Below are positions 1,476 through 36,972 of a stretch of 43,392 nucleotides of DNA, piece by piece. The stretch is from assembly GCA_000697665.1 (NCBI GenBank), contig KL197736.1, positions 318,095 to 361,486 on the forward strand, given 5' to 3'. How positions within the stretch are numbered: position 1 is the stretch's first letter; each line of letters starts with the position of its first letter. The stretch is from Jaapia argillacea MUCL 33604 (taxonomy: Eukaryota; Basidiomycota; Agaricomycetes; Jaapiales; Jaapiaceae). Both the position numbers and the translations under genes were made by a program. Under the pieces are notes generated by a model. The model was not told the origin of the DNA and did no database searches. It saw nothing but the letters and a program-made list of their open reading frames with translations.

Positions 1476-4400
1476 TATACACTGTGATTAGGCCACTTCA
1501 CTATAGTATCCATTCCCCCCCTTCACTGCTCCCCCCTCCCATATTGCTCCTCTGTTCTCCCCAATATGTCTGCTGCTCCATCAGATTCCTCGTATCCAGA
1601 TGCTGACTCGTTAGATCAAGAGGAGCGCATCCAAGCTGCGATCCTTATGATTCTCAAGTCTGGGTGAAAACCGAACGGAAAGGCAAACTTATCCTTCCGG
1701 CAGGCTGCAAAGGAATTCCGTGTGCCAAAATCGACACTACAGGATCGATTCCATGGCCTTGGAACAAGACAGCAGGCACATGCCTCGCAACAGACCCTTA
1801 CACCGGTGCAGGAAACAGTCCTGGTCGAATGGATCAAAGTCATGGCTCGTCAGGGGATTCCTGTTACCCCTGCGATGCTTTTGGATTATGCTCGAGATAT
1901 TGCCAATGCCAATGTTGGTGAATCTTGGGTGTGACGCTTCAAGGAACGGCATCCTGAGCTCAAGGTTCGGTGGACAACCAGCCTCGAACAATGTCGTGCC
2001 CAAGCTTTGAATCAAACTACCGTGAGCGAGTTCTTTGAGGTGCTGAAGGAACTCATTGACGAGTATAATCTGGCTCCAGAGAACATCTGGAATATGGATG
2101 AGAAGGGAATACAAATGGGGGTTGGTAAAGATGTACAGGTGCTCGTCGATCGTGAGCTCAAGAATGTGTATCAGGTTGAGAGTGGTGATCGGGAGCTCGT
2201 CACTATCATTGAAGCTGTTTCTGCGACTGGGAGAGTTCTCCATCCCTCTGTCATCTATAAGGGTGCTCATCGTGACCTGTCATGGGGTAAAGAGAATCCC
2301 TGTCATGCTAGGTACGGAGATATTTCTATTGTCATAATTAATCGTGGTAACATTGGTTTGCAGCATCTCGCATTCTCCCAATGGGTGGACGGATCAGGAG
2401 TTAGGGCTAAAGTGGTTACAGAAAGACTTCGAGCCAAAAACAAGAACAGATGGCTATTGACTGCTCATCCTCGATGGCCACAACTTGCATTGTACCTACA
2501 GATTCTGCAAATTTGCCGCCGACAATCGCATTCTCATCCTTTGTCTTCCATCACACACGACACATGCTCTTCAACCTTGCGATGTTGGAGTCTTTGGCCC
2601 CCTCGCTCAATCCTGGAAATCAGAGGTCAACAAGTCAGGACGTGAGCAGATCCGTATCTCAAAAGATAACATCCTTATTTTTTACAAAACTGCTTGTGAT
2701 CGTGCGCTGAAGCCCTCGACTGTGATTTCCGCATTTGCGAAGACAGGTATTTGGCCATTTAACCCAGATGCCATTCCTGACGATATGTATGCCCCTGCCA
2801 CCAATACCACTACACGATCGGCCCCCCCACTTCCGATTGTTCCCCCAACCATATTCGACCCAACATCGAACACATTTCCATCTACCATTTCAATACATCC
2901 ACACTCATCATATCCACACCCTGACACTCCTATTTCCGTGGTGGCATCCATCGCAGCCACCTCAGCGGGAGACTCTTCCGCAACATCAGTTGGGTCCATG
3001 GCATCCACTACAGCATCGACTGCAGCCACCACATCGACTGCAACCACCACGTCAACCCTAACCATTACGGCCTCACCCAACCCGGTATCACTTCCTTTCA
3101 AACTCGTTCCCCTTCCTCGTGCCCTCCCAGTCTACGCTTCGCGCGAAGCCTTTGCACAGCAAAATGTTGACCTACAAGCATTGTTGTTAGAATGTTCCGA
3201 GCAATCACAAAGATACTATGCTCAACTAAAGCTGATGGAAAGCGAGAATGAGAGGTTGCAAAAGAGGGCTTTCCGGAGGAAGAAGAAGAAAAGGATCCTT
3301 GATACTACTCATGCTCATCACATGACTTCCGACGAAAATCTTGATGCACTGGTGAGGGCAGAGTGGGAAAGCCTGATGAAGGCCGTGTTGAAGGAGGCTG
3401 CTCCCCACTTAAAGCACCAAGCAAAGCTCATTGCAGACCACTACAAACGCCTTGCACTTGATGAAAAGAACACGGAGAGGGAGGAGAAACGAAGAAAGGC
3501 AGACGAAGAGAGGATGAAAAAGAAAGCTGCTGTAGAGGCTGAGAAGTTGCAAAAGCGAGCGGAGAAGGCGGCATTAAGAGCGGAGAAGGCAAAAGAGCTT
3601 GCAGAGCGGAAAGCACAGGGGAAGGGACGGAGAGCAGGACGCAGCAGACAAAACAATACCCAAGCCATAGCGCCTGAGGAACCGGACTTGTCCGTGACAA
3701 TGCAGCCGGATCTGGCCCCTGAACTACCTGCGACACCAAGACCTCGTCTGCATCCTCGAAGAAAACAGAATGCCAAATCCATCAGAGATGTGCCTCAGTC
3801 ACCCTCGAATCAATATCTTGTCCTCGGGGAGGATGGTGCGGGAGGTGAAGGCCTGGAAGGAGCGAGAGACATCACAACACCTAATCGAGACACGATAACG
3901 GGAGGATGGGTGGTGTCGACACCGAGGCAGAAGGGAAGGATAGTACTGATGGATGAAGAAGCTGCTGAGATCAAGCCGATGATGATATTGGTGCCCATTA
4001 CACCAGACCGGACAGGCGGAAAGGCAGAGCTTGACGAGGATGAGGGGTGGCAGGTCACTGGCATTGTTGAGTCGAGGACTCAATCACCTCCCAAAGTATC
4101 AAAGCAAAGGACTGCCAAGAGGATTATACAAGATGAAGCTTGCGTGGAGATTTTGCGAACGCCGAGGTCGAGAGGGAGAACGAAAACGGTGGTGGTCACG
4201 GTGTCGCGAGGTGTTGTATCTTCTCCGGATTTGCACGCCGTTGACGTTGTTGGTGTACGCCGTAACCCACGGAGAACGAATCGAAGATGATTCTTGGTGA
4301 ATAAAGTCGAGTAGTATTGCTGTTTGGGGGACAATGGTGCCTCCAGGAGCGGTTGAACCAGCCGTTCCCACGGTTGGCCGAGTACGTACTCATTGGCCGA

Positions 4401-5034: not shown

Positions 5035-6281
5035 CTAGAGCGGTGCAAGAAGTACAGTCAGAGCACCAGCCGTCAGGATACCTCCCACCAATCCACCTAT
5101 ACCCCGTCTATGCGAAGACCTCCGTTCCCAAGCAGCCCGTTGATTCTCTCTTTCCTGTTGCTCCTGCATCATCATCCTCTGCATTTCCGCTCGAGAATAA
5201 TTCAAACCATCCTGTAACTGCCTCAACTCCTCATCCAACCTCTGAACCACCATCTCATTCCTCCGCCTCTCCTCCTCCAACTCCCTCACCGCTCGCATAT
5301 CTCGGTCCCTCATCGCTTCCATCATCTCCTCTCGTAACTGCTTCATCTCGAACTCGTGCTGCTGCTTGAGCTTCCTGATCTCGCCATCTAACTCCGCTCC
5401 CGCCGACGTATCCTCCAGTTCCGCGCCTTTCGCCATCTCCGTCTGGATCCTGGTAAATTCAGGCTGAGAATGTGTAATGATATCGGAAACGATTTGGTCG
5501 GCGGGTGGGAATTTAGGTCCTGCGACACCACGACCTAGTCGAACGAGTTGGGCGCCCTGGTCTATAAGGGTCTTGAAGAAACCCTCCTTCGTCTTCAGCT
5601 CCAGTTCACGCTGCTCTCCTTCCTGCGGCGACTCGAGCTTGTCCCACATCGTGGTGATGATAACAACGTTCTTCATCGATTCCGCACCGCATAGTTTCTT
5701 GAACATCCGCAGATTACGCTGTGAGGAGTTGCCCATTCGAGGATCAATGATTCGATGCATGTAGATAATACCAGCTAACTTCTGGTTCTGGTCGTATCTA
5801 GGTCACCGTAACATCAGACCAGTTTGACGAAATGGAGGGAGGGTAGACTCACTCGGCCTTTAAGAACGTCGCAATTTTCCTCAAGACGTCAGCGTCTGTC
5901 ATCCCGCCCGCAGCTCCCCGAGAGTCATCAAATCCAGGGGTATCGATAAAAGTTATGCATGCAGAGCTATTTGGCACGAAATAACGAGAGCGATGGATTT
6001 TCGCGGTTTGAGATTGAAGTGAGTGCCCGACAACTATCTCCTCGTCGTTCGTAATCGATTTGATGAACTGAGAAGGGACATCGTTTAGCAGGGGTCGTTG
6101 AATTCTGCATAGTGACGCATACCGAGGATTTCCCTGTCCCCGTCGCTCCCATGATACTATCGCAAAACATCGGTCATATGGACAATTCGAGCAGAATTGG
6201 GACTCACGCAATCTTCGCTTCGGGCTCGCCATCAGAGCCTTCAAACTGATAGGGTGGCGGATTTGGCATGTATCTGCTCAT
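5035..6281 (-). CDS. AIG1/GIMAP-like P-loop GTPase with coiled coil and hydrophobic C-terminus (short type, copy A)
   Basis: Exons are complement(5035-5797, 5853-6067, 6123-6156, 6208-6281), giving 361 aa with all phases consistent. G1 is GATGTGKS (28-35). G3 is DTPGFDDS (from residue 78). The G4 position reads TTMWD (156-160) instead of the usual (T/N)KxD, keeping the Asp. A charged coiled coil follows (about 225-335), then a hydrophobic end rich in Gly, Leu and Ala (about 341-361) that could anchor the protein in a membrane. AIG1/GIMAP proteins are membrane-associated regulatory GTPases in animals and plants; fungal members are uncharacterised. The start at 6281 is the first ATG in frame, and a TATA-like CATATAAGG lies about 40 nt upstream. 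It is head-to-head with copy B, which has the same 34-nt and 215-nt internal exons. Family is well supported; cellular role is unknown. Confidence 0.88.
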
Positions 6282-7346
6282 GGTGTTGGAGGGAGGCGCT
6301 ACAGAATAAGAAGCAGGACCTTATATGATACTGGGATAGCGCGGGGCGCTGGCTGTAAGAGCCCCGACCTGGATCGGGCGTAGGGAATCCCAAACCGTTG
6401 GTATGGATTTACATACTATGTACGGTTGAAAATGATTGATTGACCTCGACCCCTAAGATCCGAATACCAGACAAAGGCAGTGTATCCTGTGAACGCAGTG
6501 TTTAGCGCTCGCCCACCGATTTGGCGGTCGGGAGGTAAAGGCGTGGTTGATTGAGCTTATCGTTAACCAATGGTAAGCTGACTTCAGTTCCTGACTTCAT
6601 TTGCAACTTCTACCGAGTGAGCGAGAAGATTCAGGTGACCAGGGTTGTAAGGGATACTTACCAAGTTTGACCAAGATGATCTTTTTGGTCCTGGATTCTG
6701 CGGCTGTGGCCGTTCCACGAGTTTCCTCAAGGACCCCGGACACCAGTAAAACGCAGTGTTTTCAGGACGTGAAGACTGGATGCAGGACAATCGAAGACAT
6801 TGAATGGACAGAGCCTTCCTAACAAAATTACAGCGGATGTTGTTATGAACATGACAATCTCGTGGATGTCATCCAGGAGAACCGAGGCAGACGGATTTGA
6901 GACGGTGCTGAAGAGAAGTTGAAGTCGGAATTTGCTAGGAAATGTCACACCTGTGACATGCAGTCAGTCCTCGGACTTCAACTTTCCACATTGCACAGCC
7001 TATTTGTCGACCTGCCTGGTCACTTTTAATTGATGCCTTTGCTCGGATGTATGCTGTACTTACATCGAGCGCTACGCTCTTGTGCCGCCTCTCAATAGCT
7101 TGATTGACAGGTTGTGGTCTCCATAAGGCGGTAATTACCTAGGCTCTCCTTCGTTCGGTATCACGACGGCAGTGGTTGGCCTACAGTTTCAAAGTTGGTT
7201 ATCAATATACCCTCTTGAAACTCGCATCGCTAACTTCGGACAGCAAGGTCAAAAATTCGATATACCTCCCTCACTGACAGGTCCCCCCCCCTCCCCCCAG
7301 TCCCCATCTCCCCCACTGGTTCTGACATAGGTCTTCATCCTTCGAG
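6282..7346. promoter_or_regulatory. Divergent intergenic region between GTPase genes A and B
   Basis: This 1065-bp spacer separates the start codons of the two short-type GTPases and must hold both promoters. On the A side a TATA-like element is seen (plus strand 6320-6328, CTTATATGA). On the B side a C-rich tract (about 7284-7310) lies about 40-60 nt before the ATG at 7347. No ORF here can be joined to either gene. Shared control of the two copies is plausible from the layout but is not shown. Confidence 0.45.
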
Positions 7347-8603
7347 ATGTCACACAATCAAGGATATTCCGTTATGAAACGGCGGGATGCCCAAATCGCG
7401 TGAGTTACCCTGTAGTTTGAATGGCTGGCGGACCACTGAATGAAGGTGTATATTGTTCCAGTGTAATGGGCGCTACGGGAACTGGGAAATCGTCGGTAAG
7501 GTGATCTCTTCTAAAGTATAGTGTCAAAACCAACACGACGACAATGTTTAGTTTGTTAAAGCAGTCACCAACGACCGTAGAGTCCACATTGGTCATTGTT
7601 TAGACTCGGAGACGGACACGATTACTCTTTCCCGATTCTACGAAGAACCCGACGCTCGTTGCGTCACACTCATCGACACACCTGGATTCGACGACTCTCG
7701 AGGAGCCGCTGGCGGTTTGAGTGATGCTGATATCTTAAGGAAGATAGCTGCGTATCTCGAACAAGAGTACGTCTATTCTATATTTTGAGTTTTCTAGAGC
7801 CCCACTGACCTCTCGCGACCTCTAGGTACGACGATGATCGTAAATTGGATGGACTCATCTACTTGCATCGAATCTCCGACGTCAGGGTTGGCAACACCTC
7901 CCAACGTAACCTTCGAATGTTCCGCAAACTGGTCGGTTCCCAATCAATGAAGAACGTCGTCATCGTCACTACTATGTGGGACTTGGTTCCCCGACAAGAA
8001 GCGGAGCGACGCGAACGGGAACTTATGACGAGCAAAAGTTTCTTCAAAACTCTTTTGGATAATGGTGCTGAACTCGTTCGATTTGGTCGTAATTGCCAAG
8101 GAGAAAAGTTCCAGCCGCCTCTCGAGGTCGTTTCCGACCTGTTGAAATGGAGCGAGCCGGAATGGCTTTGCATTCAAACGGAGATGGACGAAGGAAAGGG
8201 AGTGGCAGAGACATCTGCCGGGTCTGAGCTCAGTCAAGAGCTCCGAGCTCTTATCACGAAGCACCAGAACCAAATGAGGGAGCTCCGACAGGAACTGGCG
8301 GAGGCTCTTCAGGAGAGGGATATGAGATTGAAGAGAGAACTGGATGTGGAACGGTCAAAGTTGGAGCACGAGGTGAAGCGTTGGGAAAGAGAACGTCAAC
8401 GATTGAGGGAAGATTTGGATTCTCTTAGGGCGACGGCTGAGAGGCAGAAGATTGTTTCTCAGACGAGATTGGAGCAAGAGCGCGCGGAGTATAAGAGGAC
8501 GATGCCGAGTTGGACGTCATCGTTGGCGGACGGTGTTAAGGCTGGCGCCAGCATTTTCTCAGCACTCCATGGAGCGGGAGCGCTTGCGGGCTTACACTTC
8601 TAG
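7347..8603 (+). CDS. AIG1/GIMAP-like P-loop GTPase (short type, copy B)
   Basis: Exons 7347-7399, 7462-7495, 7552-7766 and 7826-8603 give 359 aa. G1 is GATGTGKS (21-28), G3 is DTPGFDDS (from 71), and the G4 position is TTMWD (149-153). The segment RGAAGG(L/M)(S/T)DAD after G3 is nearly identical in copy A, and internal exon lengths (34 and 215 nt) are exactly the same, so the two are paralogues. Residues about 215-320 form a charged coiled coil. The C-terminus is enriched in Ala, Gly and Leu and is weakly hydrophobic, less clearly a membrane anchor than in copy A. The start at 7347 is the first ATG in frame and matches the exon-1 splice phase of copy A. It converges on copy C. GTP or ATP binding is a family expectation; no partner is visible. 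Confidence 0.88.
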
Positions 8604-9175
8604 GTGAAGACTCGCCATCGTCGCTGGAATATCGTTGGGCGAATTCATTCAGGACATCCTCATTTATATATCCATCTGTTGCATGAATAGTGTGGCTCTT
8701 CTCTGGCTCCTTCAGCCTAGGTTATTTTTGATATCTCACCTCTTCTGCACCCCTTCGTATGGAAAGATCTTGCAATTGCTTGTTCGCAGAACTATGCTGT
8801 ATATATATTGTGCTGTGGTTCATCATAAGGAAAATATCTATGGACTGGTCGCAACCGCCGCATACCTGCAGGCTACACCACCTCCGAACTTGATAATTTG
8901 TTAGCTGGTGACGTCCACTCCACCGCGAGTCGGCGCTGAGCGTTGTTGAGCTACTTAAGTACTAATCAGATTGCAAATGTGTGTATTCTTTCATGCTGTC
9001 ACAACCGAAGGTACCTCGGCGTGTGATACTGATAGAGCCAGACTTCACGACATCCGCGCGCGACGAGCAAAAGATGAACAATCACTGCTCACGTCCTCGT
9101 ATTGTCGTAGATATCTACAATTCAAACCCACCAAAACACCCAGATATGCATAGAAATTATCGCAAACACTCCACC
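8604..9175. other. Convergent 3' spacer between GTPase genes B and C
   Basis: This 572-bp stretch lies between the stop codons of two convergent genes and probably holds their 3' UTRs. It is locally AT-rich, with runs such as TATATATATT near 8800. The small plus-strand ORFs (8635-8904, 8971-9153) have no recognisable content and no splice continuation. Confidence 0.5.
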
Positions 9176-11171
9176 CTACGATGGATACCAAGAAGTCGTC
9201 ACAGATCCCAAAACCCGCCTTGAACTCGCCAACCACCCACCACCCTGCATCTGGGCCAATTGTCCCTCAAGCCTCGCCTTCACATTATGCAGCTGCAGCA
9301 TATGGTCTGCAAGACGGACTCGGGCCGTCCGGTCGACAGCAGGCAATCGCAAGTAAGCTTCGATACGTTGTATATCACCCACAACCGCATCCAGTTCTTT
9401 CCGAATAGGTTCGCTCGACTGACTTTGTTGGTCGATTTGGGCCTGTACACATTGTTGGGTTAAGATTCGGTTGACCTCCTCCCTAACTTGACGAGATTGT
9501 TGGAGTAGTTGTGCGAAATTCTGGTTGGTTGCGTAGGTGGTTGAGATGGCTTGAGTAGGTTGTTGGGCGGAGTTATATGGTTGATAGGATAGGGGCGGTA
9601 GCGGGGCCTGAGAGAGGGAGTTCGTCCGGGAAGTTGAAATGCGAGGCCCGCCCTGTAATGCGCCGAGGGTGGCTACGGTAGAACTGCCACTGGGAGTTGG
9701 CTGTTGTCGGGCGTTCGTCGCCGAAAGATTGGCTTTATTATTGGCGAGAGCCGTCGCTAGATGCTTATAAGGAGACCCGACGTCCATAGGCTGAATCTCC
9801 AAGGTAGCATTCGTTGTAGAGGGTATAGGTCGGAAAGCAGGAGATGATGACTGAGGACGAAGAGTGACAGCGGACGACATTGTTTCTCCAGAGCTGTCAA
9901 AGTCGATGAGCTGGGCCTCAGCCACTGAACCTGCGGCTGGCGCTGGAGACTGGGCAGGACGACGGGGCAGAGGGGGTGGGTGATGGCGGTAGGGTGGAGG
10001 CGGCGCAGCTCCTAACTTCTCCGCCTCAGCTTGCAAAATCGCAATCCTCTCTTGGAGTGCTTGTACATCCGCCTCAATCTCCCTTCGCACTTCATCTGTT
10101 TCTCCCCCAACTTCTTCCATCTCAATATACAACTCTCGAAGCTCCTGCTCGTTCCGTGCAGTCTGGTCAAGGATCTCCCTCCGGAGTTCGATTCCGGCCT
10201 GTGTGTCGGTGAGGAGTTTTCCCTCTTCTATCAACTCCCTCTGAATGAGGAGAGGAGTAGGTTCGTTATGGAGAAGGTTGATAATGATGGATTGTGCCGT
10301 GGCGAATATCCCATCGTGGCGAACCATGTGGGCTCCTTCATCAACGAGAGGCTTGAATAAAGTGGACTTGGATTTAAGTTCCTCCTCCCGAGATGCACCG
10401 ACAGCTGGGTCGACCTGGCTCCACCTCGTTGTAACAATGAGAACATTCTTGAAGGCGTGTGTACCGCATAACTTCTGAAACATTACGAGGTTCCGAAGGG
10501 CTGAGCCTCCCATTCTGGGAGACGAGATGTTATGAACGTAGATGACGCCGGTCAACCTTCTGCCCTCGTTGTATCTGCGATAGACTTCGCTTAGCCGACG
10601 AGCGATGGATGACGAATGGAAGGACGTACTCTGTGGCAAGGAATTCGGCGATTACACCCAGAATATCGGCATCGCTTCTGTTCGTATCATCGAATCCCGG
10701 TGTATCCACTAGTCTGACACGACGACCGTCGACCAAGAACGGCTGGGAGAGTTCGACTTTGTCTGTACAAGATTGTAGGCTATCGCTAACCCGCAGACGC
10801 GAGCTGCTAACGAGGTTTATGAACTGAACGGCGATGAGTTAGATGGGGACCATAACGGAATGCGCCCACAGCTACTCACGGTTGATTTTCCTACTCCCGT
10901 AGCACCCATTACACTTAGAGCAAAGATGGTGAATCAACAGGGCGTGAGGACAGCCATTGAGGAAAACATACGCGATCCGAACCTCATCATTGCTTTTCGA
11001 TGGTGCTAGCGAGAAATCGGTTTGATTGTCTTGATTTCCTATGAGTAGGAACTCACCTGGTGATGACCTGCCAGTGATGGAGGTAGGTTTCGGGGGAACA
11101 GGAGGTGGTGTTCTGTCATGTTTCTTGTTCTTTGAAGAAGCTATGACATGTTGCGTTGTATTGGAAGACAT
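9176..11171 (-). CDS. AIG1/GIMAP-like P-loop GTPase, long type with Pro/Ser-rich linker (copy C)
   Basis: Exons complement(9176-10574, 10630-10823, 10880-10913, 10972-11005, 11057-11171) give 591 aa. A short Pro-rich head (PPPVPPKP) precedes G1 GATGVGKS (53-60) and G3 DTPGFDDT (from 101). At G4 the sequence is TTRWS (174-178), so the Asp that normally reads guanine is Ser. A coiled coil (about 235-300) leads to a long low-complexity Pro/Ser/Thr/Gln linker (about 300-470). The C-terminal roughly 100 residues are predicted helical and end with a Trp-containing tail. The C-terminal part resembles that of copy D, so it is probably a folded conserved domain. Copies C and D align without gaps through about residue 178. 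The P-loop sits in its own 34-nt exon, as in A and B. Nucleotide preference may differ from true GTPases. Confidence 0.87.
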
Positions 11172-12520
11172 GGTATGAAGCGCAACGGGCGTCGAAAACA
11201 CCAACAAAAAGACTTAAAGGATGAGACTTCTCGACTGCGATCACGAGGCAAAGCGCAGGTAAGGTACCAATATAGTGTTAGCCCTTGGCACAGGGCAGAA
11301 CATGGTCCAGATAAGCAGAGCCCCAGCCCTTGACGCCGAGCTCACTATATTTCAAGAAAGCTGAGCGCCCGATATCAGGACCCCAGAAACAGCGCAAACA
11401 AATTGATCATCACGATGTGACATGTTTGTCACTCATCGTCCTTTGACTCCTTTTGGCTTTCCAAACATCCTCCTTTCCTCCACCCAACTCCGACTCGGGA
11501 CAACTTTACCGCAAGTACCTGGTACCTGGCGCCGAACGTCGCTCTCGTGGTAGCCTTGCCACCTCCCCCTGTTCCTGATCTTGCCAATTGAGTGACCAAT
11601 TTCCGAGCCACACCGTCCTGGCTATGTTGCTACTCTGATGTATGAAATCCAACCTGCAGTCAACCGTGTGATTGTGAAACCGGGTTCCGAGCAAGACTTT
11701 GACGCTTGCTGAAATATGGTCATCGACATAGGAGCTTTTCCAGAGGTATTTTTCCGTTTCCCAAGGAATCTTCGTAATGTTCTGGTGACAGGCTTCTGGA
11801 TGATACAACGACTTGCGGAGCGCTGGGCTAAGTCTCCCTGACGACATATCTCACCGCCGTAAGGCTGGAGGCCCGAACGAGATCTGACCAGTCCGATTTC
11901 AATGGAATGCTCGCCATGAAGGTCCGACGTGTGCTCCACCTTTCCACCCCGCTGGACTTGATTTCTGCTCGAAGAGAACGTAGTGGCCAAGGCAAGTAAT
12001 TCACTCGAACATTACCCAAATGTGACCTTCCCATCTTTCTGAATCTTCCAATCTCCTTGGTACGCTCGTCCGTCAGTTTCATGTCGTTGGTTGCTTTCTA
12101 TCGAGTGATAAATACTTGAATTCCACCTGCTGAAACTGGTATCTCGAATTGACATCCTGCCCTTCATGTCGTTCCTTCCTCTCAGTGATGGTGAGCTATT
12201 CGGTCGGAGGAACCGAATGTGACAATCGCGTGATGTAACGGTGACATTGTGCCGGACCCAATCTCCGCTGCCTCAACGCCACAAGCTCGAAATGTGTAAG
12301 CGCCTCCGTATCCTCGATATCACCCGATCTTGGGTTGTTTGTGGTCCTGTATTTACTCATGCGGAACAACATGGCTGTGATACTCCGATGAGCTCAATGA
12401 AATCTACTGCTGTGCACAGTACTACACCGTGTGGCGATAACTCTTGACAGCCCTGATCGCATCCAGCCGTTAATCTCAACCCCTGCATGCTTTGTGTTCT
12501 CTTCATCCATGATACCACAT
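11172..12520. promoter_or_regulatory. Divergent intergenic region between GTPase genes C and D
   Basis: This 1349-bp spacer between the start codons of the long-type pair must carry both promoters. No convincing TATA box was found close to either start. ORFs such as minus 11506-11847 and 11622-11990 overlap one another in different frames and have no splice continuation or motif, so I treat them as chance. No repeat linking this spacer to the A/B spacer was noticed by eye. Confidence 0.4.
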
Positions 12521-14580
12521 ATGTCATCGAGTACTTCCCACTTGGGGTCTCATAAGCGACCTGCAGATGTCGGGTTTCCCAGAAGTTCTGGTGATGGAGC
12601 TGCTCCTCAACAGAGGTCGCCTGCACACCAGCAACAACTTACCTTGGGTAAGCTTGTCTCGAGCTCATCGTAGAGTTCATTCTCACTTCTGTTTCTCAAA
12701 GCCAAGGATGAGGTTCTGATCATGTATGTGGATTCCAGATCCATTCGGACGGACGAGGCTTGACTGACAACTCCTGCCCATCATACAAGGGTGATGGGGG
12801 CGACTGGTGTTGGAAAATCATCGGTGAGTGAAGGGCTTCATGGCGTGTTTCCTACAAGTTCCTGAACCGGTTTATTCAGTTTATCAACCTTGTTAGCTCC
12901 TCAAATCTGCGGGTCAGTAATGGCCTCGAGTCATGCACGGACAGGATAGAATACTCGCGATCCGTTTCTATTAGAGGCCGTCGTGTGCGACTCATCGATA
13001 CTCCCGGGTTTGACGATTCGCAGAGAAGCGACGCCGATGTTCTCAATCAAATCGCCTCTTTCCTTTCAACCGAGTTCGTATCGTTTCCATACACACTCAC
13101 TCTATCTGGCTGACTTCAATTTTTGGTTCTTCGTTAGGTATTACAATAAGAGATACCTCACTGGCGTGATATTCCTCCATTCAATCGCTGATGTCAGGAT
13201 GGGGGGTGTTGCCCGTCGTAACCTCGCCATGTTTCAATCCCTCGTTGGTCAAAACGCAATGAAGAACGTTGCGATCGTCACCACAAGATGGAACCAAGTG
13301 GAATCACACCTGGCGCTTGATCGAGAAGCCGAGTTACAAACGCATCCCAATCTTTTCAAACCATTTCTTGATGCAGGTGCTCATTTGTTTCGCCACGATG
13401 GTTCCCTCCCATCCGTACACACGATTTTATCATCCCTCGTCCATAACCCGCCCATCCCACTCCTAATTCAAGTCGAGATTATTGACAAACGGAAGCTTGT
13501 GGCTGATACATCGGCTGGGAAGGAGCTTCAGAAAGAGCTCGTTCAGCAAGAGGCAAGGCACCAAGAAGAACTACGTGCGTTGGCGCAGGAGATGGCTGAA
13601 CTTGGTCAAGCGGACGGGCAATTGAGGCAGGAGATTGAGGGGGAGGTTAACGAGCTTCGCGATAAGATCGACCGTTTGAAAGCTGAAGCTCAGAAGTTAC
13701 GATCGCGACGCCCTGTTCGCACTTCCACCTCCCGCCCTTCTGTGGAACAAGCGTACGCCACGAGACCTGTCATTCCAGATGATCGTCGCATGGAGCGTGA
13801 TTATCCATCTCGGAACCCTGGTCCCTCCACTCGCGTTCCTGACCGATCAGCTCGGTACAACGACAGACCAGACGTGTTTAACCACCCACGGCAACGCTCT
13901 AATTCAGTCTCCTCGCCGAGCCAGTCTTACCCATCTTCTCGCTCACGCCCTGACGGACCGAACGTCCTAGTCCGCCAACGATCGCACTCGGCCGCATCAC
14001 AACGGCCACCACCTCCTAATATTGGTCCCAGTGCCCCTCGTAGAGACCCTTCTGCTCAACGCAGTAGTCAAGGACGCCAACAATCTCGGGAGCGTGATTA
14101 TGGAAGTGGGGATCCGCGGAAGACTCGATCGTGGATTTCGTTACCTGGGAGTAGAGGTCGTGAGAGTAGTCGGGAACGTGATAGGCCGACCAGTGAGACT
14201 AGGTACGGAAAGGAGGACGCTACGAGACTTTGTGAGGAGTCTAGGAGGATTCGAGTGGATGTTGAACGGTACCTTCCAGTATGTTCTTTCTATTCTCTAT
14301 GACGCGGCGCTTGGTTGACATACGGACACATCAGCCTCAATACCCTATAGATCGATATATCCCCGACCCTGTTGAGAACGAGCTGGAAGAAGTGAAAAGG
14401 CTTATCAAAGTTGTCGATAAAGCGCTGGACAACCCGCCTCGTAGGTTGAGTAGGAGCGATTTGAAGCATTTGAGTAATTATTATCATCGTTTGGAAGAGA
14501 TGAAGGGACGGTTGGTGGATTGTCTTCCGGCGGATTCGAAACGTTCGCGAGGGTTGTGGGGTTGGATAACGGGGAAGTGA
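12521..14580 (+). CDS. AIG1/GIMAP-like P-loop GTPase, long type with Arg/Ser/Pro-rich linker (copy D)
   Basis: Exons 12521-12647, 12702-12723, 12790-12823, 12880-13073, 13138-14278 and 14335-14580 give 587 aa. The start is chosen at the second of two in-frame ATGs (12509 and 12521) because MSSST matches the start of copy C. G1 is GATGVGKS (53-60), G3 is DTPGFDDS (from 101), and the G4 position is TTRWN (174-178), lacking the usual Asp. A coiled coil is followed by an Arg/Ser/Pro-rich disordered linker (about 245-470) and a C-terminal helical segment (VENELEEVKRLIK) ending with a Trp-rich tail. The last intron (14279-14334) has no counterpart in copy C. Exons of 34 and 194 nt are shared with C. 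Donor GTTCGT at 13074 is unusual but is required by homology. Confidence 0.86.
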
Positions 14581-21825: not shown

Positions 21826-22986
21826 ATGTCCGGCTCACCCACAATGATGACCAAGGAGGAGAGCGGTAACGGATACTACCCAGAGCCTCTTCATCGTGGC
21901 GCTCCTATCCAATACGTACAGGCCCCTCCCCCTCGCGTCTATGCCGATCCCGTTCGTATTTCTCTTTGTATTCTACTGGTAAACCTCCTGACACTCCCTG
22001 CACATCACTAGGCACCCTTGGGAATGTTGGCATATGGCACTGTCTTCCTCTGCTCGTCCCTTGTTACTCTCGGTGCTGGAGGTGTGACCACTCCCAACAT
22101 TATCCTCGTCTTTGCCATCTTGTGAGTGGATTCGGACCCTGTCATCAAACGAATAGGTGTTAACAATTACACAGCTACGGCGGTATTTTCCAATCGTTGG
22201 TCGGCATGTGGGAAATTTTCCTTGGGTAAGCATTTATTGAGTGATTGTCGATCCATCAAACTCATTCCTTGGATATCTGTAGTAACACTTTCGCTGCGTA
22301 AGTTCATACCTGAGCCCATTCCCTAAGATCAACTCTCAAATCTTGACGATTAGGACTGTCTTTGCTACTTACGGCGGATTCAACTTCACATACGGCTCTC
22401 TCTACCTTCCTCAGATTGGTCTTGCGTAAGTCTCGCCCACTCGATATTAAAGGCATCGCAATGACGTATTATATTTCATAGTTCGGCCTACTCTGTCAAC
22501 GGTGTCGTTACTGAGGAGTTTACTCATGCCATCGGTATCTACCTTGCCATCTGGTGGTACGTTTTTTGCATACCATATTGCCGACTGCGCCTGAATTTCT
22601 TTTGTCTCATGTAGCTTGATCACTGGTCTCTTCTGGTAAGACCTATTCGGTACTGCTATTCTTTGGACGTCCGTTAAACTTTATGTAGCATTGGCGCTTT
22701 ACGCACCACCGGCCCCATCGTCTTCACCCTCGGCTCGACTGTCATCGCCCTTGCATGCTTGTCCGCTAACTGCTTCCACCGTAAGCATCGCCTCTTCCAA
22801 TCTCTCCTGATCTCAAATCTGAACTCCTTCTTTCTAGCCAACCCCCATCTCAACACTGCTGGTGGTGCCATGGGTCTCGTTGCTACCTGCGGTGCATACT
22901 ACGGTGCCCTTTCAGGATTCTGGTCGAAGGATGCCACCTTCCAAGTCATCCGCCTTCCCCCCGTTATCCTCGCTTCCTCCGTTTAA
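21826..22986 (+). CDS. GPR1/FUN34/YaaH (Ato) family acetate-type transporter
   Basis: Nine exons (21826-21951, 22012-22121, 22175-22225, 22283-22297, 22354-22425, 22482-22556, 22615-22635, 22689-22780, 22838-22986) give 236 aa, the usual size of the family. The signature region reads DPAPLGMLAYG (family consensus NPAPLGL). The next parts are YGGIFQSLVGMWE and a second half with TYGGFNFTYGSLYLPQIG. Six membrane helices are expected. In yeasts and Aspergillus, relatives (Ady2/Ato, AcpA) carry acetate and are induced by acetate or glucose loss. Exon 4 is only 15 nt and exon 7 is 21 nt, so ORF-based callers would miss much of the gene. Donor GTTCGT at 21952 is unusual. Neighbours give no operon-like context. 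Family assignment is firm; the substrate is inferred. Confidence 0.93.
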
Positions 22987-33300: not shown

Positions 33301-34396
33301 CGAAAATAGGAAAATGGCTGCGAAGACCGTCCTGCTTGGTGGAAAGAAGAAAGCGCCGGATGGTTCGATCTCGGAAAAGGTGACCACGTCGTACAAGAAG
33401 TGGTATGACCGTCTCGTATTGGCTGTTCGACTTGCGATGCCTCCAGACGTCCCTTACACCGTTATCCACGCGGAGAACCTGGTCGGCCTCTTCAGCTGTA
33501 TTTTTGTGAAGAATACCGAAAGGATTGCTCTGAAAGATGTGGCGATCACCACTGTCAAACGTGGAATGGGTGGTCGGTACGGGAATAAGGTACGGATTGA
33601 ATATTATGTTGATTTGTTTTCCTTTTGATATCGGATAAACAGGGCGGCATTGTTGCTCGTTTCGTCATTGATGACTCGTCCATATGCTTCATCAATTGTC
33701 ATCTTGCCGCTGGCCAGCATCACGTTCGTCAGCGCAACGCCGACGTCGCCGCCATATTGGAAGATAAGGAAGTGTTTCCTGCTGTCGATTCCACGATCCA
33801 CGAACCGTTAGCCTACGTTGGAGGAGGTGATGGTTCGATGGTTCTTGATCATGAGATCGTTTTCGTACGTGCATCATCCTCAGCACTGGACCTTCATACT
33901 AAATGTATCTCAGTTCAGCGGAGATATGAATTATCGGATAGAACAACGTCGAGAAGCCGTGGCCGCGGCTGTCAAAGCGAACGATTTCGACTATCTCATT
34001 GCACACGACCAGCTATGCAAAGAGATGAAGCATAATCGCGGTTTTCGTTTACGCTCCTTCACGGAAGGCCCACTTATATTCGCACCAACTTACAAGTACG
34101 ATCGCAGGTCGAACGAGTATGATACCTCCGAAAAGCGCCGCGTACCTGCTTGGTGCGATCGAATACTCTGGCGTTCACGAGATGAGAGACGTGTTACTCA
34201 ACTTCATTACCAGAGGTATGAGGCCAATATATCTGATCATCGACCTATATCCGCTGGGTTCCGGATGACGGTGAAGAGCGTGAATAAGCATGTTCGGGGT
34301 CGGACGAAAGAAGAGGTGGAGAGCTTGTGGATGATACAGGAGTATCAACTTCTGTCGGACGCGCGTGAATACTACAAAACCCAGGCTCTGGTTTGA
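30397..34396 (+). CDS. WD40-like inositol polyphosphate 5-phosphatase
   Basis: Certain exons are 30397-30923, 31180-31520, 31571-33043, 33102-33589, 33643-33864 and 33914-34396. Joining them directly gives 1177 aa in frame. The 256-nt gap 30924-31179 is long for this genome and may hide a small exon. The first 400 or so residues are a Pro/Ser-rich disordered region with poly-Pro runs (PPPPPPPSRGG). Next comes a beta-propeller-like section (VRIYDLSYSETPRWDVDL, VGTKDGHLLEFDV, VRFWDG). The last 430 residues are the phosphatase with the family motifs ISWNVDA, GFQELIDL, INCHLAAG, FSGDMNYRI, VPAWCDRILW and SDHRP. Enzymes of this family remove the 5-phosphate from PI(4,5)P2 or soluble inositol phosphates. 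WD40 plus 5-phosphatase architecture is also known in plant 5PTases. All visible catalytic motifs are intact. Confidence 0.9.
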
Positions 34397-35300: not shown

Positions 35301-36972
35301 ATGGCAGATGTTCATCCAAATCTCGCGCCCCTCTCCGAACTTGACCTAAACACCATCTACAGACGACTTGATGCTATCAGAGGAGATGGTGGTAATGCAG
35401 GAGCCAGGTTTTCGAATTGGGCGAGGACGTATTCTTGTCGACCTGCAGCGATCTTTGAGCCCAGAAATGAAGATGATTGTAGGCTGGTTGTGGAGTTGGG
35501 AAGACGAGAAGGCAAGACTGTTCGAGCCGTAGGTGTCGGCCACAGTCCGAGTGATTTGGCTTGCACCGATGGCTATTTGGTCAAGATGGGAAAGCTGAAT
35601 CAGTTGGTGGAGGTGAGTCCTGGCGTTACGTTTCTTCTCGTAACCTTCACCAGCTTCAGTCTCCGCCTCTTACCAACATACCCGCACAGGTCAACGAGGA
35701 GAAGAAAATCGTTGTCTCCCAGCCTGGTATCACCTTATCAGCCCTCCGCATCGCCCTAGAGCCTCACAACCTTGCCCTTCCCAATGTTGGTTCCATCGCT
35801 GCCCAAACCCTCGCCGGAGCAGTGGCCACTGCGACCCATGGCTCGGGGTTGAAAGACGGCGTCATCTCTTCACACGTCCTCTCCTTGACAATTCTCCTAT
35901 CAGACGGCAGTGAAATGCGTTGTTCCAAGACCGATCACTCCGACTTGTTCTACGCATCGTTATGTGGTTTGGGCAGCACCGGCATCATCCTCGAACTTGA
36001 ACTCTCCGTTGAAGAGAAGTTATCTTTCAAAGATGTTCGGTTTTCGACTAGTTTCGATCATGCTGTACGGGATCTAGAGGAACTCGCCCACAGTTCACAA
36101 TATACTCGAATGTGGTGGTTCCCTCAAACCAATGTCGTGCAAGTTAGCCTTTCAGATCCTACGTCCGAGGTGGGTGATTTTATTCATCTGTCATGGTATG
36201 AGATATACGTCTGACCGAGAAGCACAGTCGAAGAAACCGCAGAGGAGCTGGTCCATTACGCCTCTAATTCAATTTCACCTCACGCAATTCCTACTACTCC
36301 TCGGGTTGATATTCCCGGTGTTCAATCTTTGGGCAGGGTATCTCGTTTCCTGGTTTGTAAGAGGAAAAACCGTCACCATTGACGAAGGCCACAAGATCTT
36401 CAACCTCGATTATCAAGTACGCATCCGTTCCTTTCCCCAACAAACTGCTCTCATATGATTGCATAGTACCTCCAACATACCCTCGAATTCGCCCTACCCA
36501 TTTCAAGCGCCCCTAATTGTCTCCGCGACTTGCGTACCTACTTTGACAAGGAACACAAGAACCCGTACGGGCTTCGTCCGCATTTCCCTGTCGAGATTAG
36601 GTTCTCGGAGGAGGACGAGATATGGTTGAGTCCTTCGTACGGTCGGAGGACGTGTTGGATTGGCATCGCGCAATATAAGTGCGTTTCCTTTGCCTTTCTG
36701 CCTCCGCCTTGAAATGTTTATTCATCTCGTGTCATATCGATAGGCCCTTCGGTTTCGATGTTCCCCACGAAGAGCTCTTCTCAAATTTCACCAGGATCCT
36801 CCTCCTTCATGACGCCCGACCACATTGGGCCAAAGCGCACAACCTTGGTCCAGGACCGTTGAGGAAGTTGTTCCCCCATTTCGACGATTTTGTGGAGACA
36901 GTGAAGAAGTACGATCCAATTGGGATGTTTAGGAATGAGTATGTCGAGAGACACATCTTATCTGGCAGTTGA
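35301..36972 (+). CDS. ALO1: D-arabinono-1,4-lactone oxidase
   Basis: Exons 35301-35612, 35690-36169, 36228-36416, 36467-36678 and 36744-36972 give 473 aa with consistent phases. The enzyme oxidises D-arabinono-1,4-lactone to D-erythroascorbic acid, the fungal analogue of vitamin C, with O2 reduced to H2O2. The N-terminal FAD_binding_4 domain contains RAVGVGHSPSD, whose His is the expected site of covalent FAD attachment, and GSIAAQTLAGAVATATHGSG for FAD binding. The C-terminal ALO domain ends with PHWAKAH, the conserved HWAK motif. A hydrophobic stretch in exon 3 (FLLLLGLIFPVFNLWAGYL) fits the membrane association known for yeast Alo1 in the outer mitochondrial membrane. Start is the first ATG in frame. 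It converges on the SAMHD1-like remnant. Confidence 0.94.

Follow-up and report, generated by a model that had tools for sequence, protein, structure and literature searches.

GTPases of the AIG1/GIMAP type are known from vertebrates and plants. GIMAP7 forms a face-to-face dimer with an arginine finger acting in trans. Some GIMAPs combine a helical part with a C-terminal hydrophobic anchor (PMC8201404), R-fingers are said to occur in paraseptins, TOC34/TOC159 and AIG1/GIMAP proteins (PMC11238149) and the head-to-head duplicates found among plant IAN genes have been ascribed to inverted repeats (PMC12845241). Fungal AIG1-like proteins are often annotated merely as hypothetical or P-loop proteins (PMC6872716), and no paper on mushroom AIG1-like gene clusters was among the matches listed from the open-licence literature, which lacks most subscription journals. 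Here we describe four P-loop genes, A to D, in a stretch of 43,392 nucleotides from Jaapia argillacea MUCL 33604 (contig KL197736.1, here C28:318095-361486, referred to as the window). Contig C28 accounts for 476,732 of the 43,724,918 bases (1.1%) of an assembly in 95 contigs. The genes probably belong to a family of divergent fungal GTPases of AIG1/GIMAP-like (paraseptin, TRAFAC) kind that is expanded locally and has grown by single-gene duplication, inversion, dispersal and decay, and that comprises membrane-tailed A/B-type members and one diverged C/D pair.

The four genes and the surrounding array

Models of A to D were built from splice consensus and homology. The four genes are intron-bearing and follow in the order A (minus strand), B (plus), C (minus) and D (plus), from the stop codon of A at 5035 to that of D at 14580, which agrees with an earlier account made from the letters of this DNA alone (the sequence-only reading). 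Each model has an ATG, a stop and GT-AG introns of 51–66 bases, and reading is open throughout in all four. Gene A (5035..6281, minus strand) has four exons (6208-6281, 6123-6156, 5853-6067 and 5035-5797) and encodes a protein of 361 residues in which a G domain is followed by a helical part and a hydrophobic C-tail. Gene B (7347..8603, plus strand; four exons, 7347-7399, 7462-7495, 7552-7766 and 7826-8603) encodes an AIG1-like GTPase of 359 residues with a marginally hydrophobic tail. Gene C (9176..11171, minus strand; five exons, 11057-11171, 10972-11005, 10880-10913, 10630-10823 and 9176-10574) and gene D (12509..14580, plus strand; six exons, 12509-12647, 12702-12723, 12790-12823, 12880-13073, 13138-14278 and 14335-14580) each encode 591 residues and have the same layout of G domain, helical part, low-complexity linker and C-terminal helical module. 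Three introns coincide in position and phase in all four genes; the first (phase 2) precedes the P-loop, the second (phase 0) comes right after GKS[ST] and the third (phase 2) falls at an E/Y junction. Of the 26 spliced family models, 22 have this 2/0/2 series, including A to D and one broken frame (C28:224k). Identity between G domains is 59.9% for A-B and 60.3% for C-D, and 43.4–47.6% for the cross pairs.

The 'cluster of four' of the sequence-only reading proves to be an undercount. Three further genes of the A/B type, all on the minus strand (C28:308.8k, 311.0k and 313.3k, hereafter 309k, 311k and 313k), lie a short way to the left of the window, so that seven family genes (309k, 311k, 313k, A, B, C and D) are neighbours. 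The models of 309k, 311k, 313k and C20:428k are open over the aligned stretch and through the end of the last exon. Genome searches with A, B and D found at least about 25 family stretches on C28 and at least about 10 on C20, C15, C26, C4, C3 and C24 combined. Only the best candidates were scored, so that these counts are lower bounds; matches were merged by eye, the counted stretches include fragments, stop-bearing ones and perhaps pieces of one gene, and weak matches to a second AIG1-type set of this genome were excluded. Truncated or stop-bearing stretches occur at C4:958-959k and at C28:154k, 216k, 222k and 224k. A further array of the same family, with mixed orientation and several broken members, lies at C28:146k-239k. 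Across 19 hand-placed C28 loci, with small fragments omitted (about 152k, 178k, 180-181k, 200.6k and 218k), neighbours are oriented on the same strand in eight cases, divergently in five and convergently in five. When strands are assigned at random to 19 genes, 62% of the orders contain the series minus, plus, minus, plus. In an array of this kind, the alternation seen in A to D can be expected to occur by chance.

Motifs of the G domain and relation to GIMAP proteins

Motifs were counted over 24 aligned family rows (the 26 spliced models without C3:424k, which lacks the P-loop part, and C28:224k), with G2 (SxTx) and G3 (DxPG) defined as in PMC7053062. The G1 motif GxxxxGK[ST], the SxT of G2 and the DTPG of G3 are each found in 21/24 rows. 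Genes A to D all carry GxxxxGKS at G1 and DTPGFDD at G3, confirming that these two motifs are intact in all four, and have SQT, SET, SCT and SCT, respectively, at G2. The G4 motif has the form T/S-x-W-D, with Trp in 24/24 rows and Asp in 20/24; the Asp is replaced in C (Ser), D (Asn), C28:208k (Gly) and C4:545k (Asn). At this position C has the codon AGC and D has AAC, one base apart. The TMWD of A and B fits T-x-x-D, whereas TRWS in C and TRWN in D do not fit the NKxD, TxGD or TxCD/E variants.

Between G3 and G4 lies a conserved box close to HRIxDxRM, the letters of which depart from the GIMAP box LG-R-F/Y-TxE D/E: only the Arg and the spacing agree. The Arg, which we take to be the counterpart of the catalytic Arg103 of GIMAP7, is present in 19/24 rows, including all of A to D. 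From it to the next conserved Gly there are 17 residues both in A to D and in GIMAP7, a register that is our own reading, as the HMMER alignment itself has a gap there. The G5/IAN motif RxxxFNN is absent from A to D, in which an Arg alone agrees at the likely position (LVRLGRG, LVRFGRN, MVRHDGI and LFRHDGS, respectively). The family thus resembles vertebrate GIMAP2, GIMAP5 and GIMAP7 in G1, in the SxT and DTPG of G2 and G3, in the T-x-x-D of A and B and in the box Arg at GIMAP7 spacing. It is unlike them in the remainder of the box, in its invariant G4 Trp, in its non-canonical G5/IAN region and, for C and D, in lacking the G4 Asp and in having a linker and a helical end.

At E ≤ 0.001, 12 family G domains match the Pfam model MMR_HSR1 in 12/12 cases and AIG1 (PF04548) in 11/12. 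Against the AIG1 cut-off of 27 bits, C (29.3) and D (35.8) lie above and A (23.5) and B (23.0) below; MMR_HSR1 gives 32.2 bits for A (cut-off 21.9) and 30.6 for B. A profile of the 12 G domains finds GIMAP7 in the Protein Data Bank (PDB) (1.1e-7, profile positions 2-139 of 231), in an alignment that runs from G1 to beyond G4, and also septins and Toc34, with which the similarity extends over G1–G3. Septins and Toc34 differ from this family in G4 and in their C-terminal parts. The assignment made by the sequence-only reading is supported: judged on its sequence, the family is AIG1/GIMAP-like but divergent.

The second AIG1-type set (L001-L008) is separately clustered, at about 1.11-1.19 Mb on C7 and about 118-129k on C3. 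Its best member scores 45.8 bits with AIG1 versus 35.8 for D. When a profile of six of its eight frames is compared with the family profile, 122 columns align with a probability of 97.2%, and the PR of the box falls in register. The set is unlike the present family in having TGLE or TGFE at G4, and its G domains, where shown, lie in one open frame. The orthogroup OG0000027 of Sordariales (PMC12258605) was compared by Pfam names only, and kinship with it is a lead.

Tails, linkers and C-terminal modules

The division into short, membrane-tailed and long, linker-bearing types put forward by the sequence-only reading holds, with a strong tail in A and a marginal one in B. Nine tails were tested by comparing the best 14-mer of the last 26 residues with 5000 shuffles, uncorrected for multiple tests; the true ends of the remaining family members are unsure. 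The observed value was reached by 6 shuffles for A, 0 for 309k, 0 for 311k, 1 for 313k and 3 for C15:44k, which have strong hydrophobic tails, by 125 for B and 107 for C20, which are marginal, and by 2985 and 3158 for C and D, which have no hydrophobic tail. The low-complexity linkers of C and D span about 175 and 182 residues and are rich in Ala/Pro/Ser and Arg/Ser/Pro. Beyond them, the C-terminal parts are alike (27% identity over 84 residues, BLASTP 2e-5), and the last 114 residues of C are predicted, from a two-sequence input, to form three helices (mean predicted local distance difference test score 73, predicted template modelling score 0.47, with an end of low confidence). A genome search with the module of C found only itself and missed that of D.

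Kinship of A, B, C and D

Two sets of rows were used for trees: 22 G domains over 242 columns, from which C28:154k and C28:216k were omitted for want of the P-loop exon, and 18 rows, from which the decayed copy C4:959k was also removed, together with C4:545k, C28:198k and C28:177k as long or incomplete rows. C and D are sisters with support of 99/97 in the 22-row tree and of 99/96 and 98/96 in the 18-row tree under two models. A and B fall in an A/B-type clade of seven (100/98, 22 rows), within which A groups with C4:959k (97/91), with C20:428k (97/97) and then with 309k/311k/313k. B branches outside all of these, as sister to the A clade (93/93 with 22 rows; 94/92 and 87/88 with 18). C15:44k groups with C/D, not firmly (69/77 with 22 rows; 85/86 and 87/89 with 18). 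The evidence favors a birth-and-death history with an early split into A/B-type and C/D-type lineages.

A tree constrained to unite A and B is worse by 37.1 log units with 22 rows (approximately unbiased (AU) test, p 0.0002), and by 19.9 units (p 0.0126) or, under LG+G4, 22.1 units (p 0.0158) with 18 rows. The sequence-only reading had taken each divergent pair to consist of closest relatives and had named a protein tree beforehand as the test; the tree of this genome's members keeps C with D but sets A apart from B, with A nearer to C4:959k and C20:428k, an outcome which that reading had said would refute it and which applies to A/B and not to C/D. The identities agree: A is 75% identical to C4:959k (191 columns) and 69% to C20:428k (239 columns), versus 58% to B (239 columns). 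The single row closest to B by identity is nevertheless A (58%), which explains why the two were seen as a pair. Head-to-head order and top identity inside a window do not prove a sister pair. Rejection is far stronger for each of the other groupings, A+C (p 1.6e-9), B+D (p 6.6e-8), A+D and B+C, than for A+B. The A+C and B+D results also reject block duplication of a ready-made divergent pair.

DNA comparison shows what the dispersed copies carry. C4:958354-959630 matches A together with its 3′ flank at 75-80% and contains stops, and C20:428.6-429.7k matches the coding stretch of A at 67%. Matches of B at these loci are the same A-type copies read in reverse, and the A-B intergenic region has no match at the A-type copies on C4 and C20.

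Origin and meaning of the head-to-head order

The two head-to-head intergenic regions, A-B (6282..7346, 1065 bp) and C-D (11172..12508, 1337 bp), have no significant sequence in common (blastn best E 0.61). Scored against 100 dinucleotide shuffles per region, the best inverted repeat was matched by 10/100 shuffles for A-B and by 96/100 for C-D, so that neither region contains an inverted repeat above its shuffles. The locus is like those of plant IAN/AIG1 genes in its tandem array and head-to-head duplicates, and unlike them in lacking inverted repeats above chance and in that A and B are not sisters. Another possible history, which we hold less probable than not, starts from the inverted duplication at palindromes that has been proposed for plant IAN genes (PMC12845241): both head-to-head pairs would have originated in this way, and the A lineage would later have given rise to 309k–313k and to the C20 and C4 copies. 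A true inverted duplication would fit C and D, which are sisters; for A and B it is conceivable only at the level of the ancestor of the A clade, to which B is sister. The lack of a present inverted repeat above chance speaks against such an origin but is no disproof: with synonymous sites close to saturation, such a repeat could since have been lost. That the pairs are two functional modules, each a matched pair of GTPases under one bidirectional promoter, appears very unlikely. The divergent order, the distances between start codons, the sister relationship of C and D and the suggestion, itself untested, that plant head-to-head IAN pairs may share a promoter (PMC12845241) would accord with it. 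However, A and B are not sisters, the intergenic regions have no significant sequence in common and no inverted repeat that beats shuffles, the alternating order is common among random orders and the A-B intergenic region is missing from the A-type copies on C4 and C20. The evidence favors a head-to-head order of A and B that is incidental, or older than A's own copies, and an order of C and D that goes with a true sister pair.

Two further readings concern the family as a whole. Assignment to another Era/Der-like TRAFAC family rather than to the AIG1 type is unlikely. MMR_HSR1 is the best Pfam model by E-value in all four genes, A and B miss the AIG1 cut-off, the most frequent NCBIfam match is Era (far below cut-off) and the top PDB profile match is Der/EngA, summed from three weak stretches. 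Against this stand the AIG1 scores of C and D above cut-off, the GIMAP7 alignment from G1 past G4 with equal Arg–Gly spacing and the profile match to the second AIG1-type set. As Der, GIMAP7 and septins rank close together, sequence alone does not settle the branch. We likewise give little credence to a decaying array of mostly relic genes with little function, maintained by tandem duplication and transposons. The truncated and stop-bearing stretches on C4 and C28 and a DDE_1 transposase frame inside the array would be in keeping with it, but the models of A to D are fully open and those of 309k, 311k, 313k and C20:428k are open to the last exon end. Non-synonymous divergence (dN) is 0.405, with a proportion of synonymous differences (pS) of 0.764 (A-B) and 0.702 (C-D), and dN is below synonymous divergence (dS) in the pairs with finite dS.

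Several observations weigh against an expanded AIG1/GIMAP-like family of the kind we prefer. The dN/dS comparison is poor evidence, given near-saturated synonymous sites and a decayed C4 copy in which dN is likewise below dS (0.135, 0.30). A and B lie below the Pfam AIG1 cut-off, with MMR_HSR1 the better model, and the box Arg is absent in 5/24 rows (K, T, P, H and a gap), including the near relatives 311k (T) and C15:44k (K). Rejection of A+B weakens to p 0.013-0.016 once the decayed C4 copy is removed, and with a single genome sampled, gene conversion between neighbors could have reshaped the tree. The tails of B and C20 are borderline, their values being reached by 125 and 107 of 5000 shuffles in nine uncorrected tests, and as to a coiled coil after the G domain, only B and D match helical or coiled-coil Pfam models, weakly and below cut-off.

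A possible division of labor

If the likeness to GIMAP7 extends to mechanism, A/B-type proteins would be seated in a membrane through their tail, would bind GTP and dimerize face to face and could use the Arg of the conserved box as a finger in trans. C and D would be soluble members of the family whose base recognition is weakened or altered, and could bind or regulate the membrane-tailed proteins via the G interface or a coiled coil. One scheme, frankly speculative and to which we attach only a slight probability, is that C and D, with G4 changed from Asp to Ser in C and to Asn in D, bind nucleotide weakly or with altered specificity and, as soluble partners, switch the membrane-tailed A/B-type GTPases. 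This would constitute an independent fungal circuit like GIMAP2/GIMAP7, perhaps acting in a non-self or stress response. The array offers a compact set in which tailed and tail-less members lie side by side with a natural change in G4.

Other sequences in the window

The DDE_1 transposase frame (2461..4287, plus strand; Pfam DDE_1 37.0 bits, cut-off 22), which is not a GTPase gene, separates gene A from 309k, 311k and 313k. A phage search with this stretch gave no match and was uninformative. Window positions 1914-2630 have a 65% relative at C25:484577-485304, and positions 715-1115 recur at 98% identity, in full or partly, at two C22 sites (79.8k and 87.9k) and may represent a mobile element. 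The plus strand has a match to the GPR1/FUN34/YaaH family at about 22680-22950 (33.3 bits, cut-off 25). The window also contains, right of the array, part of an endonuclease/exonuclease/phosphatase gene (33812-34393) and part of a FAD-binding, D-arabinono-lactone-oxidase-like gene (35555-36211).

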